Source of the DNA: Armatimonadota bacterium
GTDB lineage: Bacteria; Armatimonadota; Hebobacteria; GCA-020354555; CP070648
Reading direction: 5' to 3'
Assembly: GCA_035527535.1 (NCBI GenBank)
Contig: DATLAK010000074.1
Location: 1-36,396, forward strand
DNA length: 36,396 bases
The translations under genes were made by a program, and so were the position numbers. The notes under the pieces are model-generated. The model did no database searches and was not told the origin of the DNA. It worked only from the letters and a program-made list of their open reading frames with translations. The stretch's first letter is position 1; each line of letters starts with the position of its first letter. Of the stretch, positions 13,505 through 32,632 are shown piece after piece.

Positions 13505-13781
13505 AGTAATCACCTCCGTTGCGGCTTCGGCCCGGTGACGGTGCGTGCCACCACCGCCGGCGACCCAGGTTTTGGATCGCGCCGTCACCTTGTGCCACCC
13601 CAAGCGCCTACGCCAAGCATACCCAGTCTACATTAGGCAAGTGCTGTTGGACAGAGGAATCAAGCGCTGCTTGTGCAGGGCCTGCAACATTGATGGATGG
13701 CCGACATGTCATTGCCGGGGCCGATTGTCATCTTGGGCATACGTGGATCATCTCCGCGCGATGCCGCGTCCGTCAAGTTTC

Positions 13782-13884
13782 GGTTCTCCGCGCTCACCCG
13801 CCCGATGACATCATACACCCAGGTGGTGCGCTCAGCAAAGGGGTTTGCGAGCCATTCCAGCGCATTGCGGCTGTCGCTCTCCAC
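13782..13884 (-). pseudogene. Rhs/YD-repeat fragment in unit 1
   Basis: The minus strand encodes SDSRNALEWLANPFAERT, then TWVYDVIGRVSAENRNL, closely matching the start of the Rhs tip at 15718-16896 (DSRNMLSWLVNPFAERTTW, LYDALGRV). After that the frame becomes unrelated and ends at 13660. It is a single stranded YD repeat without a core or a recognisable toxin. Confidence 0.75.
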
Positions 13885-14193
13885 GCCGAATTAAGGTGAC
13901 TGTCCCCGTGATTTCCGGTAATCACCTCCGTTGCGGCTTCGGCCCGGTGACGGTGCGTGCCACCACCGCCGGCGACCCAGATTTCGGATCGCGCCGTCAC
14001 CTTGTGCCACCCCAAGCGCCTACGCCAAGCATACCCAGTCTACATCAGGCAAGTGCTGTTGGACAGAGGAATCAAGCGCTGCTTGTGCAGGGCCTGCAAC
14101 ATTGATGGCTAGCCGACATGTCATTGCCGGGGCCGATTGTCATGCTGGGCATACGCGGAACATCGCCGGGCGATGCCGCGTCCGTCAAGTTTC

Positions 14194-14296
14194 AGTTCTC
14201 CGCGCTCACCCGCCCGATGACATCATACACCCAGGTGGTGCGCTCAGCAAAGGGGTTTGCGAGCCATTCCAGCGCATTGCGGCTGTCGCTCTCCAC
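14194..14296 (-). pseudogene. Rhs/YD-repeat fragment in unit 2
   Basis: The 412-bp-shifted copy of the fragment at 13782-13884, with the same YD residues and a few substitutions. It lies downstream of the Asp-box lipoprotein on the same strand and shows that the fragment was duplicated as a block. Confidence 0.75.
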
Positions 14297-26069: not shown

Positions 26070-26564
26070 TCACCGCCCGTGCGCGGCGAGGATGCGTTCG
26101 ATGAGGCGGGTGGTGGAGCTCTCGGGCAGCGGCGGGATAAGATGCACCTCGCCGCCGTAGGATTCGACCAGGTTCCTCTCCTCCTGGTTCATGGTCGCCT
26201 TGGTGTAGTCGCCGCCCTTGACGAAGACCTCGGGGCGCAGCAGGCGCACCAGCACCTCCGAGGTCGCCTCGGGGAAGATGACCACCAGGTCCACACTGGC
26301 GAGCGCCGCCAGGGTCTGAGCGCGTTCCGTCTCGCTGACGATGGGGCGCGCCGGCCCCTTGAGCGCGGTCACCGAGCGGTCGCTGTTGAGGCCGACGATA
26401 AGGAAGTCGCCGAGCGCCCGCGCCTGCTCCAGGTACAGCGCGTGGCCGGCGTGCAGCAGGTCGAAGCAGCCGTTGGTGAAGGCGATGCGCTTGCCCTGCG
26501 CGCGCAGGTCGGCGGCGATCTGCGCCGCCTGCTCGCGAGATACGATCTTGTCGCGCAGTGACAC
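26070..26564 (-). CDS. rfaE2: D-glycero-beta-D-manno-heptose 1-phosphate adenylyltransferase
   Basis: 164 residues, matching the adenylyltransferase half of HldE as a separate protein. IAFTNGCFDLLHAGHALYLE carries the nucleotidyltransferase HxGH motif, with VGLNSDRSVTALKGPARPIV, VVIFPEATSEVLVRLLRPEV and FVKGGDYTKATMNQEERNLV following. It activates heptose 1-phosphate with ATP to ADP-heptose for LPS core or S-layer glycans, suggesting a diderm envelope. GTG start with gggagaag about 6 bases upstream. The kinase half is not nearby. Confidence 0.9.
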   Translation of the reverse strand: MSLRDKIVSREQAAQIAADLRAQGKRIAFTNGCFDLLHAGHALYLEQARALGDFLIVGLNSDRSVTALKGPARPIVSETERAQTLAALASVDLVVIFPEATSEVLVRLLRPEVFVKGGDYTKATMNQEERNLVESYGGEVHLIPPLPESSTTRLIERILAAHGR

Positions 26565-26632
26565 CGGAGGCTTCTCCCGCGGCAGGGGCGGCCAGGCTCC
26601 GACTCGTCAGCGCCGCCGCCGCGGCCATACGT

Positions 26633-26685
26633 GGCTAGGGCCGACGAATCGGCCCGCCACGGCGGTCTGCAGAGCAGACCTAGCC
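26633..26685 (-). repeat. Four-way-junction (cloverleaf) repeat, copy 1
   Basis: An outer 7-bp stem ggctagg/cctagcc (26633-26639, 26679-26685) encloses three abutting hairpins: gccgacgaatcggc (26640-26653), ccgccacggcgg (26654-26665) and tctgcagagcaga (26666-26678). No junction base is left unpaired. A second copy in the opposite orientation is at 32025-32073. It lies between rfaE2 and the diguanylate cyclase gene. It is not a tRNA: it lacks the T-loop and acceptor features. Confidence 0.8.
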
Positions 26686-26749
26686 GCCTAGCCATTCGCG
26701 AACCGCCCCTACGATACAGCGTAGCGTTCGACGCAGCGGGGGAAAGCCC

Positions 26750-26779
26750 TGTACGGGCGCATGGCCATGCGCCCGTACA
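26750..26779. terminator. Perfect 30-bp palindrome at the end of the GGDEF gene
   Basis: tgtacgggcgcatgg is followed directly by its complement ccatgcgcccgtaca. It sits one base from the stop codon of the diguanylate cyclase gene (26781-26783, minus strand), so in RNA it gives a 12-13-bp hairpin right after the stop. No T-run, so termination or 3'-end stabilisation is inferred. Confidence 0.6.
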
Positions 26780-26780
26780 T

Positions 26781-27707
26781 TCATGCGGCCTCGGCCTCCG
26801 GCGCCGGGATGCCCTCCGCCTCGGCGACGAGGGCGGTGCAGACGGTATTGCCGCCCAGCCGCTGCGCCAGGTAGCACGCCTGCTGGGTGACGTTGACCAG
26901 CTCGCGATCGCTGGCCGCGTCCGCCGGGAAGGTGGCGACGCCGAGGCTGGCAGTCAGGCAGTCGGGAAAACCGTGCTCTTGTACGACCGCGCGGATACGC
27001 TCGGCCAGGGCGATGGCGTGACGGGTGGTGCAGTGGGGGAGGATGATGGCAAACTCGTCGCCGCCGCAGCGGGCCACGAAATCGCTGCGTCGCGTAGTCT
27101 CCATGAGCAGGCGCGCCATCGTAATCAGCACCTCGTCGCCGTGGCGCCGCCCATAGACCTCGTTGTGACGACTGAGGGCGTCCACATCCAGCAGGATCAG
27201 CGACAGCAGGCTCCCCGACTCTCCGGCCGCCTGCACCTGCGCCTCGATCGCGACATGAAAATGGCGAGCGTTGTAGATGCCGGTGAGGGGGTCGGTGACC
27301 GCGACGCGCTCGAGGAACGCGGTCGCCTCGGCGAGCGGATGGCGAAAGGGCGGCATCTCCTCCGCCTGCGACCCCGCAGGGGGAAGCGGAAGCGGGCGCC
27401 CCACCTCGCGCAGCTCCGCGTCCGCCCACTGCTTGTGCCGCAGCAAACCGGCGGACAGCCCGCGCCACAGCATGACCTCGGCGAGCAGCCGGCTCGCCTG
27501 CAGCAAGGCCAAGGCGCGCTGATCTGACGCCTGGCCGGCGAGGTGCTTATCCAGGGCCGCGGCGTGGATGCGCGCGACATCCGCGGGGCCGATCTCGTTC
27601 TCCGCCAGCCGGCGGCCGAGGACCGCGGCATCGTTGCCGGCTTGCTCCTGGTCATCGCCCGAGAGGGCGCGCGCGAGCAATCGCTGGTAGTCGCATTTGA
27701 CGTCCAT
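26781..27707 (-). CDS. Diguanylate cyclase (GGDEF) with RsbU_N-like N-terminus
   Basis: 308 residues from the preferred ATG at 27707 (MDVKCDYQRLL). Residues 1-65 (YQRLLARALSGDDQEQAGND, IGPADVARIHAAALDKHL) resemble the helical N-terminal domain of RsbU-type phosphatases, a partner-binding sensor module. After a linker the cyclase starts at VAVTDPLTGIYNARHF; the active site GGDEF is intact at residues 215-219, and RRSD five residues before it is a complete product-inhibition I-site (RxxD). It should make c-di-GMP from GTP. The frame is open to 27800, so a longer start is possible. No EAL or PilZ gene is in the window. Confidence 0.88.
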   Translation of the reverse strand: MDVKCDYQRLLARALSGDDQEQAGNDAAVLGRRLAENEIGPADVARIHAAALDKHLAGQASDQRALALLQASRLLAEVMLWRGLSAGLLRHKQWADAELREVGRPLPLPPAGSQAEEMPPFRHPLAEATAFLERVAVTDPLTGIYNARHFHVAIEAQVQAAGESGSLLSLILLDVDALSRHNEVYGRRHGDEVLITMARLLMETTRRSDFVARCGGDEFAIILPHCTTRHAIALAERIRAVVQEHGFPDCLTASLGVATFPADAASDRELVNVTQQACYLAQRLGGNTVCTALVAEAEGIPAPEAEAA

Positions 27708-27873
27708 AGAGAATGCGAAGCCTCCGTCGGAACCGTGCTTGGCGAACGTAACGGTCGCGCTGCTGCGTCGTGCGCAACCGCCATGGAGGTGATTCCACAA
27801 CGGGCCGCCTGCATGGTGGCGCGTAGGCCCGGCGAATGCGCGGCAATGTCCGGTCCTCGGACAAGGCCGCCAG

Positions 27874-30276
27874 TTATCCGGGCTGGTCTGCGCCGGGGGG
27901 GAGAAGCTCCGCCACGGTGACGCCGGCGGCGCCTTCCTCGCGCCGCGCCGGGCGATAGCCGCGCACCAGGGGATGCTTGCTCAGTAGCTCGCGGGCGGCG
28001 TTGCGCACCGCGAAGGTGCCCATGCCATGCACGATGCGCACCTCGTTCAGCCCCGCCAGCACCGCGTCGTCGAGGTACTTCTCCAACACCTCCAGCGCCT
28101 CCGCCACCCGCATCCCCCGCAGGTGAATCTCCGGCGGCACGGCGCGAGCCTTCTCCAGATGTGGGGTTAGCTCAACCAGCGCATCCGGGACCTGCCGCAA
28201 GTCCTCCAATCGCACGCGGAGCTTGAGGATCCCCACCTGCACCTCCGCCATGCCCTCCTCGTCCGCCATGCCCAGCGCCGTGCCCCGCTGTCCGACCGTG
28301 CGTACGAATACCGCATCGCCGGGGCGGATGGAGGTGACCGGGCGTGTCGGCTCCGGCGCCAGGGGGGGCGCGGTGGGCGGTACCGCAGGGACGGGCAGGG
28401 CCTGCTCGACCCGCTCGCCGGCGCGGGCAAGCTCGGTCTGGGCAGTGTGCGCGGTACGGTCGGCGGTGGCGCGCGTCGGCTTGCGGCGGGCCTCCTGCTG
28501 CAGGCGCTCGATGATCTCAGCCGCCTGCCGGCGCGTCTCGTTGAGCACCTGCGAGGCCTCGCGCCGAGCCTCCCGCAGCACCTCTTGGCGCTTGGATTCC
28601 AGCTCGCGCAGGCGGCGCTCCAGGTCCTCCCGCAGCCCCTGCATCTCGCGCCGCTCGCGCTCGGCGGCGGCGCGCTCGGCCTGCAGGCGCCGCTGCGCCT
28701 CCTCGATGCCCCGGATGGCGTCCTCCATCACCGTTTGCGTCTGGCCGAGTCTGGCGCGGGCGCCGGCGACGAGGTCCGGCGGCAGCCCCAGCCGCCCCGC
28801 GATGGCGAAGGCGTTGCTGCTGCCGGGCAAACCGAGGCGCAGGTGATACGTGGGCATCAGCGTCTCCGGGTCGAACTCGACGCTGGCGTTCTCAATGCCG
28901 GGCTGGGCATAGGCGAACGCCTTGAGCTCCCCATAGTGAGTGGTCACCACCGTGCGCGCGCCGCGCACGAGCAGCTCCGTCAGCACCGCCTTGGCCAGCG
29001 CCGAGCCCTCCGCCGGGTCGGTGCCGGCGCCGATCTCATCCAAGAGCACCAGCGCATTCGCCGCCGCGGGCACCTGCCGCATGACGGCGACGATCTGCGC
29101 CATGTGCGAGGAGAAGGTCGAGAGGCTCTGCTGGATGCTCTGCTCGTCGCCGATGTCGGCGAAAACCTGGGCGAACACCGCCAGGCGGCTCCCCTGCTTC
29201 GCCGGCACGTGCAGCCCGGACTGCGCCATCAGCGTCAGCAGACCCACGGTCTTGAGGCTCACCGTCTTGCCGCCGGTGTTGGGGCCGGTGATGACGAGCG
29301 CGGTGAAGCCCTCGCCGACGCTGATGTCAATCGGCACCACCTCCCCGGCGAGCAGGGGGTGGCGCGCGGCGAGGAGGTCAACTACTCTGTCGGCGTTGAG
29401 CTGCGGCTCCACGCAGCCCTGCGCCTGGCTGAGGGCGGCGCGCGCGAAAATGAGATCGAGCGTGCCCAACACCTCCAAGGTCGCCCCCAGTCGGGGCGCG
29501 GCCGCTCCCACCATGGCGCTGAGGCCGGCGAGGATGCGCCGCAGCTCGCGTTCCTCTTCCTCGCGCGCCTGGGCGAGGTCGTTGCCAAGCTCCACCAGCG
29601 CCAGCGGCTCCATGAAGACGGTGGCGCCGCTGGCGGAGGTGCCGTGGATGATGCCGCGGAACTCGCTGCGGAACTCGCTGCGGACGGGAATGCAGTAACG
29701 GCCGGAGCGCGTCGTCATCAGCGGGTCTTGGATCATGCGCTGGTACTGGGGGCTGCGCAGCATGCGCTGCAGGCGCTGCTCCAGCGTCGCGCGCAGGGAA
29801 CGCGCCCGCTGGCGCAGGCGCGCCAGCTCGTCACTGGCGTCATCGCGCACCTCGGCGCGAGAGTCTATGCAGCGCCCGATCTCGTCCTCCAGGCTCCGGA
29901 AGTCGCCAAGGGCACGCGCGTGGGCGGCAAGCGCGGGCGCTGCCGCCTCGCGCCCCAGCAAGTGAGCTCGCAGCCGCCGCGCCGCGAAGGCGGTGCCCGC
30001 GATGTCGAGGAGCACCCCCGGTTCCAGCACCTGGGACTTGGCGGCACCGCGCAGCGCCTCGCGGACATCGCGCACGCCCCCCAGCGGCGGCGAACCGTCG
30101 CTCTCGGCCAGGGCGCGCGCCTCGGTCGTCTCCTGCTGCCAGGTGCGGGCGACCTCCAACCGCGTCGCCGGCTGCAGCGCCCGGGCGCGTTCCTTCCCCA
30201 GCGCCGAGGCGGCGTGCCCGGCTATCATCTCCCGGATGCGGTCAAACTCCAGAACTCGCAGCGTCCGCGCGTCCAT
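27874..30276 (-). CDS. mutS2: Endonuclease MutS2
   Basis: 800 residues, normal for MutS2. It starts RTLRVLEFDRIREMIAGHAA, has the MutS core with IIHGTSASGATVFMEPLALV, and an ABC ATPase: VITGPNTGGKTVSLKTVGLL (Walker A), FSSHMAQI, LVLLDEIGAGTDPAEGSALA (Walker B) and VVTTHYGELKAFA. A long charged coil follows (EAQRRLQAERAAAERERREM), then a KOW-like segment and the C-terminal Smr nuclease domain (EIHLRGMRVAEALEVLEKYL, VRIVHGMGTFAVRNA). MutS2 rescues collided ribosomes and/or suppresses recombination. Residues RSEFRSEFRG come from a 12-bp tandem duplication (29656-29679) inserting four residues. Confidence 0.95.
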   Translation of the reverse strand: MDARTLRVLEFDRIREMIAGHAASALGKERARALQPATRLEVARTWQQETTEARALAESDGSPPLGGVRDVREALRGAAKSQVLEPGVLLDIAGTAFAARRLRAHLLGREAAAPALAAHARALGDFRSLEDEIGRCIDSRAEVRDDASDELARLRQRARSLRATLEQRLQRMLRSPQYQRMIQDPLMTTRSGRYCIPVRSEFRSEFRGIIHGTSASGATVFMEPLALVELGNDLAQAREEEERELRRILAGLSAMVGAAAPRLGATLEVLGTLDLIFARAALSQAQGCVEPQLNADRVVDLLAARHPLLAGEVVPIDISVGEGFTALVITGPNTGGKTVSLKTVGLLTLMAQSGLHVPAKQGSRLAVFAQVFADIGDEQSIQQSLSTFSSHMAQIVAVMRQVPAAANALVLLDEIGAGTDPAEGSALAKAVLTELLVRGARTVVTTHYGELKAFAYAQPGIENASVEFDPETLMPTYHLRLGLPGSSNAFAIAGRLGLPPDLVAGARARLGQTQTVMEDAIRGIEEAQRRLQAERAAAERERREMQGLREDLERRLRELESKRQEVLREARREASQVLNETRRQAAEIIERLQQEARRKPTRATADRTAHTAQTELARAGERVEQALPVPAVPPTAPPLAPEPTRPVTSIRPGDAVFVRTVGQRGTALGMADEEGMAEVQVGILKLRVRLEDLRQVPDALVELTPHLEKARAVPPEIHLRGMRVAEALEVLEKYLDDAVLAGLNEVRIVHGMGTFAVRNAARELLSKHPLVRGYRPARREEGAAGVTVAELLPPGADQPG
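29656..29679 (-). repeat. In-frame 12-bp tandem duplication within mutS2
   Basis: gcggaactcgct occurs twice in a row (29656-29667, 29668-29679), giving the doubled SEFR in MutS2. It keeps the frame. It looks like replication slippage. Confidence 0.85.
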
Positions 30277-30423
30277 CCCTCAGTCCCGCCTGCTCATTTC
30301 GCCGCCGCCGAGGGTTATCCCCGCCGCGGTTTGCGCCGGGCGGACAGAAACGCGGGTGCCCCTGGGCCGCAGGTGGCGGCGGCGAGAGAAGCGCGAACGA
30401 AGACCGCAGGGGGTGGGGGAGAC

Positions 30424-31560
30424 CTAAAGCCCATGCCGGGGGAAGATAAGGCGCTTGACCTGGGCCACCGAGTCCTCGGCCATGGCTCTGACCTCGGCGC
30501 GAAGGTCGTCCTCGAACTGCGGAACGTCGGTGTCGTGCAGGCGGCCGTCGCTGTCGGGATAGCGCGCGGCCAGCGCAGCCGGGATCTCATCAGGCAACTC
30601 CACGCCGGCCATGACCCCGAACGCCAGGCTCCACGCGCGCGGCACCACCTGCAGGTCATATCCGCCGCCGCCAACCGCGATCCATTTGCCCGGCAGGTCG
30701 CGGATCATCGCCACCACTTCGGTGAAGCCGCGGGTGGTGAGCGCGAGATGCGTCAGCGGGTCGCGATAGTGCGAATCCGCGCCGAGCTGGCTCACCACGA
30801 AGTCGGGGGCGAAGGCGGCCACCAGCGGCGGCACGATTTCGCGGACGGCCCAGGTGTAGGTCTCGTCGTCGGTGTACGGCGCCAGCGGCACATTGACCGA
30901 GCAGCCCACACCCTCCTGCGCTCCCATCTCCTCCACCTCTCCCGTATGCGGGAACAGGTAGCGCCCCGTCTCGTGCAGCGAGATGGTCAGCACGCGGTTG
31001 GAGTCGTAGAACGCCTCCTGCACGCCGTCGCCGTGGTGGGCGTCTATGTCAAGGTAGGCGACTCTGGCGTCGCCGTCGGTGCGCTCGAGGACATGAGCGA
31101 TGGCGATGGCGGGATCGTTGAACACGCAGAATCCCGCGGCGCGGTTGCGATGGGCGTGATGCAGCCCCCCGCCGATATTGAACGCCACCGCGCTCTTGCC
31201 GTCGAGCACGAGGTCTGCGGCCAGCAGCGAGCCGCCGACGCACAGCGCCGAGGCTTCGTACATCCCGGGGAAGAGCGGGTTGTCCGGGGTGTCGAGACCG
31301 TAACGCCGCGGCAGATCAACGCGCTTCCCTTCCCCCAGCGCGCGGACGACCTCGATGTATTCGTTCGAGTGTACCGTCAGCAGGTCGCGCTTGTCGGGCA
31401 GGCTCGGCTCGTCCCAATTGATGTCGGGGGGAGAGGGCACGACTCCGTATGCCTGAAGCAAATCGAAGGTCAGCTCGAGGCGCTCGGGGCGCAGGGGGTG
31501 GCCGGCGCCTATGCTGTAACCGGAGAGCTTGGGGCTGTGAATCAGGGTCGCACGTTTCAT
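30424..31560 (-). CDS. acuC: AcuC-type histone-deacetylase-family hydrolase
   Basis: 378 residues of the arginase/deacetylase fold, class I HDAC-like. Zinc and catalytic motifs are present: FNIGGGLHHAHRNRAAGFCV (tandem catalytic histidines), YLDIDAHHGDGVQEAFY (zinc ligands) and IAVGGGGYDLQVVPRAWSLA (tyrosine). AcuC removes acetyl groups from protein lysines, in Bacillus reactivating acetyl-CoA synthetase; here an acyl-CoA synthetase is in the same window, though it is the ADP-forming type and far away. ATG at 31560, with a GTG one codon earlier. A good promoter precedes it at 31577-31606. Confidence 0.88.
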   Translation of the reverse strand: MKRATLIHSPKLSGYSIGAGHPLRPERLELTFDLLQAYGVVPSPPDINWDEPSLPDKRDLLTVHSNEYIEVVRALGEGKRVDLPRRYGLDTPDNPLFPGMYEASALCVGGSLLAADLVLDGKSAVAFNIGGGLHHAHRNRAAGFCVFNDPAIAIAHVLERTDGDARVAYLDIDAHHGDGVQEAFYDSNRVLTISLHETGRYLFPHTGEVEEMGAQEGVGCSVNVPLAPYTDDETYTWAVREIVPPLVAAFAPDFVVSQLGADSHYRDPLTHLALTTRGFTEVVAMIRDLPGKWIAVGGGGYDLQVVPRAWSLAFGVMAGVELPDEIPAALAARYPDSDGRLHDTDVPQFEDDLRAEVRAMAEDSVAQVKRLIFPRHGL

Positions 31561-31576
31561 CACATCACCGGGGGCC

Positions 31577-31606
31577 AGTATAGCCGCCGCTCACAAGCAG
31601 CGTCAA
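31577..31606 (-). promoter_or_regulatory. Sigma-70-type promoter for acuC
   Basis: On the minus strand TTGACG (31606-31601) and TATACT (31582-31577) are 18 bases apart, upstream of the acuC start at 31560. The short leader leaves about 10 bases between the predicted start site and the ATG. Confidence 0.65.
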
Positions 31607-31634
31607 GGCGAAGCGCTGAGGGAGCTGAGGGTCG

Positions 31635-31663
31635 TTGTGCAGGCCGGGGTTATGGGCTATAAT
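31635..31663 (+). promoter_or_regulatory. Sigma-70-type promoter for the BON gene
   Basis: TTGTGC (31635-31640) and a perfect TATAAT (31658-31663) are 17 bases apart, 49 bases before the ATG. It is arranged back to back with the acuC promoter, with 28 bases between the -35 boxes. Confidence 0.75.
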
Positions 31664-31712
31664 GTGGCCGATCGGATACCAGCCAACGCCGGGGGGGCGA
31701 CCGGAGGGAACC

Positions 31713-31973
31713 ATGACCGAGGCCGGACATGTCGAACACGAAGTCCGCAAGGCGCTGGACGAGGACGAGACCACTGCCGGGCTCGATCTGTCCGTGAAGT
31801 ATGTCAACGGCGTCGTTTTCCTCGACGGCGCTGTAGCCACCGCCGAGCTGCGCGCGGCTGCGGCGGGCGTAGCGGGCAAGGTGGAAAGCGTGGCCTTCGT
31901 CCGCAATCGCCTGCAGATCAAGCCCGACCATCACACCACCCGCGAGCTCTTCCGCGAGGGCGAGGGAAGATAG
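31713..31973 (+). CDS. BON-domain protein
   Basis: 86 residues forming one BON domain: VEHEVRKALDEDETTAGLDL, SVKYVNGVVFLDGAVATAEL, VAGKVESVAFVRNRLQI. BON domains bind phospholipid or serve in osmotic-stress proteins. There is no signal peptide, so it would be cytosolic. The start has cggaggg about 5 bases upstream. A CBS-domain gene follows; BON and CBS modules often occur together, sometimes fused, so a joint sensing role is possible. Confidence 0.82.
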   Translation: MTEAGHVEHEVRKALDEDETTAGLDLSVKYVNGVVFLDGAVATAELRAAAAGVAGKVESVAFVRNRLQIKPDHHTTRELFREGEGR

Positions 31974-32024
31974 CCGCCTGCGCGGGTCAACGATGAATGG
32001 GCGCGAGATAAGCGCCTCTTCGGC

Positions 32025-32073
32025 GGCTAGGCCCGATGGGCCGCCGTGGCGGGCCGACTCGTCGGCCCTAGCC
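32025..32073 (+). repeat. Four-way-junction (cloverleaf) repeat, copy 2
   Basis: Inverted relative of 26633-26685. Outer stem ggctagg/cctagcc (32025-32031, 32067-32073) encloses cccgatggg (32032-32040), ccgccgtggcgg (32041-32052) and gccgactcgtcggc (32053-32066), again with no unpaired junction base. The first arm differs in sequence and length from copy 1 yet still pairs. It lies between the BON and CBS genes. Confidence 0.8.
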
Positions 32074-32179
32074 ACTTCGTTCAGCACAAGGACTTCACCG
32101 AAGTCGCGCCCAATGATGGAGTGCGGAGACGGGGCAGCGGCCCGGGCACCGCGCCCCGGCGGGCATGCGAGGGTTGACC

Positions 32180-32632
32180 ATGGAAGCACGCGAGCTGATG
32201 ACCAAGGACGTCGTCACCGTTGCCCCGGACACGCCGGTGTCGGAGATCGCCAAGCTGCTGTCGGCGCACCACATCGGGGGCGCGCCGGTGGTTGACGCCG
32301 AGGGAAAGCTGCAAGGCATCGTCAGCGAGGCGGACCTGGTGGTGCGGGCGGCGCGGCCGCATTTTCCGCGTTACATCCCATTCCTCGAGGGGATAATATT
32401 CCTGGAGAACCCGGCGCACTACGAGCGGGAAGTGCGCAAGATGCTGGCGGCGACCGCGGCCGACATCATGACCGAGAAAGTGATCACGGCGTCGCCCAGC
32501 GCGTCGCTGGAGCAATTGGCGACGCTGATGACCGAGCGCAACATCAACCGCGTGGTGATAACCGATGGCGAGCGTGTCGTCGGCATCGTCACCCGCGGGG
32601 ACATCGTTCGTAACCTCGCGGCGGCCGGGTAG
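32180..32632 (+). CDS. CBS-domain pair protein
   Basis: 150 residues from ATG 32180, with gcgaggg 6 bases upstream (an ATG 15 bases earlier is in frame but lacks a site). Two CBS motifs: ARELMTKDVVTVAPDTPVSE, HHIGGAPVVDAEGKLQGIVS and, after a linker (PRYIPFLEGIIFLENPAHYE), ADIMTEKVITASPSASLEQL and NRVVITDGERVVGIVTRGDI. Such pairs bind adenine nucleotides or S-adenosylmethionine and act as energy sensors. It stands with a BON gene upstream and a CHASE2 kinase downstream. Confidence 0.9.
   Translation: MEARELMTKDVVTVAPDTPVSEIAKLLSAHHIGGAPVVDAEGKLQGIVSEADLVVRAARPHFPRYIPFLEGIIFLENPAHYEREVRKMLAATAADIMTEKVITASPSASLEQLATLMTERNINRVVITDGERVVGIVTRGDIVRNLAAAG

Follow-up and report, generated by a model that had tools for sequence, protein, structure and literature searches.

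The 36,396-nt stretch of Armatimonadota DNA analysed here (the window) carries two copies of what is, with a probability of roughly 0.65, a non-autonomous, transposable, REPIN-like family, in which hairpin units form inverted doublets that insert without target-site duplication and that a Y1-type HUH transposase would mobilise in trans. The basic unit was shown to be a hairpin whose 5-bp base, RYGGC/GCCRY, is conserved; above it come a TA that bulges out on the 5' side, within a CTAGG motif, and then a GG/CC step, and the stem and loop on top vary freely. We propose that the element would move as single-stranded DNA, with the transposase, a Y1-type HUH enzyme supplied in trans, reading the hairpin base and the bulged TA; the upper stem would need only to pair, so that feet and bulge would remain constant and stems could drift and be swapped among copies.

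Copy 1 lies at 26633-26685 on the forward strand and copy 2 at 32025-32073, read on the reverse strand, the two being mutually inverted, as the first-pass annotation had placed them. Its account of their parts likewise holds for the ends (GGCTAGG/CCTAGCC) and centre (CCGCC-AC-GGCGG) common to both copies, for a near-identical arm that differs by A/G (GCCGACGAATCGGC versus GCCGACGAGTCGGC), and for the other arm (TCTGC-AGA-GCAGA versus CCC-ATC-GGG), which is wholly unlike in sequence with pairing retained. The pair said to be gained by the A-to-G loop change does form, but only if a 2-nt loop is allowed. In both window copies a single unit, 5'-RY-GGC-TA-GG-stem-loop-stem'-CC-GCC-RY, is present as an inverted pair; their parts are as follows:

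26631..26660, + strand: copy 1 unit a, bulged hairpin GTGGC-TA-GG-GCCGA-CGAA-TCGGC-CC-GCCAC, TA bulge at 26636-26637
26659..26687, - strand: copy 1 unit b, bulged hairpin GCGGC-TA-GG-TCTGC-TCT-GCAGA-CC-GCCGT, TA bulge at 26681-26682
26659..26660, no strand: copy 1 centre dinucleotide AC, common to both units
26686..26693, + strand: GCCTAGCC adjoining copy 1 on its 3' side; a further unit, since lost, probably left this foot
32023..32047, + strand: copy 2 unit a, bulged hairpin GCGGC-TA-GG-CCC-GAT-GGG-CC-GCCGT, TA bulge at 32028-32029
32046..32075, - strand: copy 2 unit b, bulged hairpin GTGGC-TA-GG-GCCGAC-GA-GTCGGC-CC-GCCAC, TA bulge at 32069-32070

The sequence GCCTAGCC is also found 3' of doublets in two other stretches (L068 and L070), where more array sequence is left. 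The window copies are both intergenic, flanked by a cytidylyltransferase gene and a GGDEF gene in one case and by a BON-domain gene and a CBS-domain gene in the other. Elsewhere in the window, positions 13506-14287 hold a near-identical 412-bp tandem duplication (~380 bp at 96-100% identity).

Further copies were sought in the source genome (3.24 Mb in 192 contigs, 95.75% complete) and its relatives, as the first-pass annotation had proposed, and many were found. The single-unit pattern GGCTAGGN{7,20}CCGCC gave 199 matches in the source genome, against 44 for a reversed control, and the full doublet pattern, chosen by the feet only, occurred at 29 places against 0 in the control, which excludes chance as the origin of the window copies. 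Single-unit matches thus exceed the control by about 150, and the family numbers roughly 150-200 tiny mobile hairpins. Of 14 genomes of the class Ca. Hebobacteria, five contain doublets (the source genome, G001, G007, G009 and G013); 87 further Armatimonadota genomes from outside the class contain none. Among ~85,000 species genomes, only three contigs matched: two from Ca. Hebobacteria and one labelled Bacillota, the last being the same locus as in class member G013. The family is lineage-restricted. A phage origin was rejected, the doublet pattern being absent from viral contigs.

A doublet consists of two inverted units, spans ~45-60 bp and has a 2-nt centre (AC, GT or AT) common to both. 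Our statistics draw on 0.78 Mb, or 24% of the genome, mainly from contigs with known matches, which biases densities and not the pairing tests. When this sequence was scanned for X4-C-NN-GG...CC-G-X4', NN = TA gave 70 hairpins and the remaining dinucleotides 2-29 each (median 8); altering the C or the GG/CC step in the same scan lowered the count to 0-2. A rarer second foot type, GTCCC/GGGAY, has changes relative to GTGGC/GCCAY in both halves of the hairpin. Units occur singly and in A+A-, A+B- and A+B+A- arrays, with +- the commonest multi-unit cluster (16/44 clusters).

As judged from occupied and empty sites, the element is mobile, which upholds the earlier suggestion of a transposable element. 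In a BcrAD-type activase gene, a doublet lies in frame and adds 16 residues, missing from two solved homologues that were aligned and from the G001 orthologue (73% identity). A 48-bp insert in mfd combines an A unit with a B-like one; G001 lacks it, and the flanks there align closely. At one end this insert is similar to the target flank in inverted orientation, a feature that is not general elsewhere. A tRNA-Arg(CCG) copy in G007 holds a doublet between T-stem and T-loop, with an intact tRNA-Arg ~3 kb away (the two copies, one interrupted, lie at 1380-1660 and 4432-4506 of L071; also L045), and in G013 a tRNA 3' fragment is interrupted at the same point, with the uninterrupted version adjoining. 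The insert ends are base-exact in both tRNA cases, C-GGCTAGG...CCTAGCC-A between GG and TTCGAATCC, and neither filled/empty pair has a target duplication. Across all doublets, direct or inverted repeats in the flanks do not exceed chance, a purine occupies position -2 at 53/56 ends and the terminal base is a pyrimidine at 55/56, consistent with insertion at R^Y, i.e. preferably between purine and pyrimidine. By the interrupted G007 tRNA-Arg, an ORF (1594-2157, - strand) resembles by eye the end of a large serine recombinase, with no Pfam match; this locus may represent an integrated element, the tRNA end having been duplicated.

The claim that sequence changed while pairing was kept was borne out well beyond the two window copies. 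In 30 doublets picked by their feet only and regardless of their arms (43 distinct arms), 82/86 outer stem positions were paired at depth 2, against 50.3 (maximum 60) with 3' halves shuffled between arms, and 114/129 at depth 3, against 63.6 (maximum 80). Among 79 distinct arms, six arm pairs differ by exactly one compensated base pair (e.g. CCC-TTC-GGG and TCC-TTC-GGA) and five by a single pair-breaking stem change, with the loop holding most of the close differences. The arm TCTGC-TCT-GCAGA was found with five different partners, and two GCCGACGARTCGGC arms have seven partners between them. The swapped arm of the first-pass annotation reflects arms that occur as modules with varying partners, with a compensatory change here and there; we infer a physical exchange of arms between copies. 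Hairpin shape seems to count for more than the bulk of the sequence does. In other stretches of the source genome (L051-L070, L074-L093), other GTAG-tagged palindromes have constant loops and differing stems (e.g. GGTAGGCCAGGCGTCYCGCCTGGC, GGTAGCGCGGCCGTCTCGGCCGCG and GTAGGGGCGCA...TGCGCCC), so fixed feet bearing variable stems may be a general feature of the source genome.

The first-pass annotation took a gap-free four-way junction with every junction base paired as the conserved unit. Such a fold is possible but not the most stable: with DNA parameters, both window copies fold at minimum energy into a pair of TA-bulged hairpins, and two such hairpins beat the junction in 29/30 doublets with DNA parameters and 27/30 with RNA parameters. 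In 27/28 doublets, the bases flanking the two feet can both pair with the centre. It is accordingly quite unlikely that a non-HUH enzyme moves these palindromes by recognising, in double-stranded DNA, a cruciform or four-way junction whose parts would be the outer stem (GGCTAGG/CCTAGCC) and the central hairpin (CCGC/GCGG). The 7-bp outer stem of such a structure can form from the inverted feet of every A+A- doublet and is often lengthened by the -2 and +2 bases (21/28). However, a junction is impossible for single units and for A+B- and A+B+A- arrays, whose feet are unable to form one, and the TA bulge is specific, yet in a junction its T and A would be ordinary paired bases. The GTCCC/GGGAY foot type is compatible with the hairpin only. 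The junction was rejected as the unit on folding energy and on the single and mixed units. Selection of the fold in transcripts, as a structured RNA (also raised by the first-pass annotation) or a transcription terminator, is very improbable, even though the hairpins are strong, their pairing is conserved and 27/37 clusters (stretch-end clusters excluded) lie between genes predicted by a rough, home-made codon-usage caller, against ~15% of random positions. The window has no Rfam 15 match above gathering score, and in the vicinity of relatives' copies Rfam gave a single match, weak and tmRNA-like, to a tRNA 3' end; a known RNA family was therefore rejected. Nor is there a terminator-like site (a hairpin followed by a T run) in 26400-32300, and the intergenic clusters (19 co-directional, 6 divergent, 2 convergent) follow the same pattern as all gaps, which together rule out a rho-independent terminator and leave no gene-orientation preference. 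Some copies, moreover, lie within protein and tRNA genes, and units occur on both strands.

A fossil family, formerly mobile and now inert, would agree with the presence of units in several genera of the class, a sign of age, and with the lack of a cognate transposase beside them; its stems would be paired through the youth of the copies or hairpin-templated palindrome repair and not through selection by an enzyme. We regard this as unlikely, given that 95% of outer stem positions are paired despite great sequence divergence and that an identical ~115-bp multi-hairpin array with differing flanks stands at two sites of one contig, 9 kb apart (L064 1788-1903 and 10845-10961), which suggests copying as a whole, and recently. 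A tentative alternative is an element read almost purely by shape, in which an enzyme, possibly not a RAYT, recognises the TA bulge enclosed by the base stem, and the stems are modules actively exchanged between copies. If this were true, a single genome would harbour self-complementary stems of dozens of kinds, all on the same feet.

Our preferred reading, a REPIN-like family of inverted doublets, calls for an enzyme acting in trans on single-stranded hairpins, and we infer that this is of Y1/HUH type because Y1 genes are present, CTAG-adjacent palindromes flank a broken one in G004, CTAG is enriched beside hairpins, and TnpA-REP reads tag and bulge. The source genome has three Y1_Tnp genes (L039, L040 and L041). 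That of L041 is surrounded by GTAG-tagged REPs with constant feet (GTAGGGGCC...GGCCCG) and differing stem; that of L039 (1026-2067) sits within an array of about ten copies of CGCGGGGTTCTNCTAACCCCGCG and CGCGACCTTRAGAGAAGGTCGCG palindromes; and that of L040 has a perfect 26-bp inverted repeat, AATTCCGGGGACAGTCGACTTAATTA, on both flanks (1365-1390 and 2089-2114) and no REPs. A broken Y1_Tnp gene in G004 (L105 1214-1941) is flanked by the CTAG-adjacent palindromes CCCAGGGCAACGCCCTGGG. CTAG is the most enriched tetranucleotide beside perfect hairpins, at 10.8-fold, a figure that includes the TA-bulged family itself (GTAG, 2.9-fold). The TnpA-REP enzyme reads tag and bulge and partly tolerates stem changes (PMC8266576). 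Against this reading stand the 0/30 Y1 loci with TA-bulged units among those examined in the class, the 10 Y1_Tnp genes of G002, a genome with no doublets, and the lack of a terminal GTAG. With an assembly 95.75% complete, the cognate transposase gene could be missing or lost.

The family amounts to a natural mutagenesis experiment, its 43 arms separating the parts kept in sequence (feet and TA bulge) from that kept in structure (the upper stem). With it, the range of REPIN-like mobile DNA comes to include Ca. Hebobacteria, a little-studied class for which none was reported in the literature searched; the tag lies inside a bulge rather than at the end. The base-exact T-arm insertions in tRNA gene copies define the element ends and therefore make the mechanism directly testable.

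REPINs are paired REP palindromes moved by Y1/HUH RAYT transposases. The present family resembles REPINs and BIMEs in its short GC-rich hairpins, inverted pairs, short spacers and mostly intergenic location, and in forming singletons and mixed arrays as well. The arms of one REPIN dimer may differ (PMC3733652), and in E. coli REPs the bulge is important for recognition (PMC8266576). The family shares with REPs short (20-40 nt) GC-rich palindromes in many, mainly extragenic copies (199 versus 44 matches; 27/37 clusters) and with REPINs the inverted unit pair as replicating unit (29 doublets). It differs from both REPINs and BIMEs in carrying many unrelated stems on one pair of feet and in having no GTAG or CGTC tag at one palindrome end, its CTAG lying at the hairpin base with the TA bulged and enclosed by a 5-bp stem. 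Nor is a RAYT (Y1_Tnp) gene flanked by TA-bulged units (0/3 in the source genome, 0/30 class loci). Because terminal tag and flanked RAYT gene are both lacking, we place the family as a new REP-like variant and not as a REP/REPIN member. In the GTAG-tagged REPs of the same genome and class (L041, L098-L102), a tag likewise adjoins a GC-rich palindrome, but the GTAG is terminal, no base stem encloses it and the repeats flank Y1_Tnp genes. IS200/IS605-type elements insert without target duplication. The family shares this and the subterminal hairpins with them, and differs in its 45-60 bp length, with no internal gene and no demonstrated fixed guide or target sequence. Like classical MITEs, which depend on DDE transposases, it is short and non-autonomous with inverted terminal repeats; unlike them, it makes no target-site duplication, in the two exact cases and statistically. 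A cruciform element is a poor match, with the junction disfavoured in 29/30 doublets and impossible for single and A/B units. Mobile hairpin or GC elements are also found in compact mitochondrial genomes; hosts and sequences differ, and the likeness lies in mobile hairpins within compact genomes.
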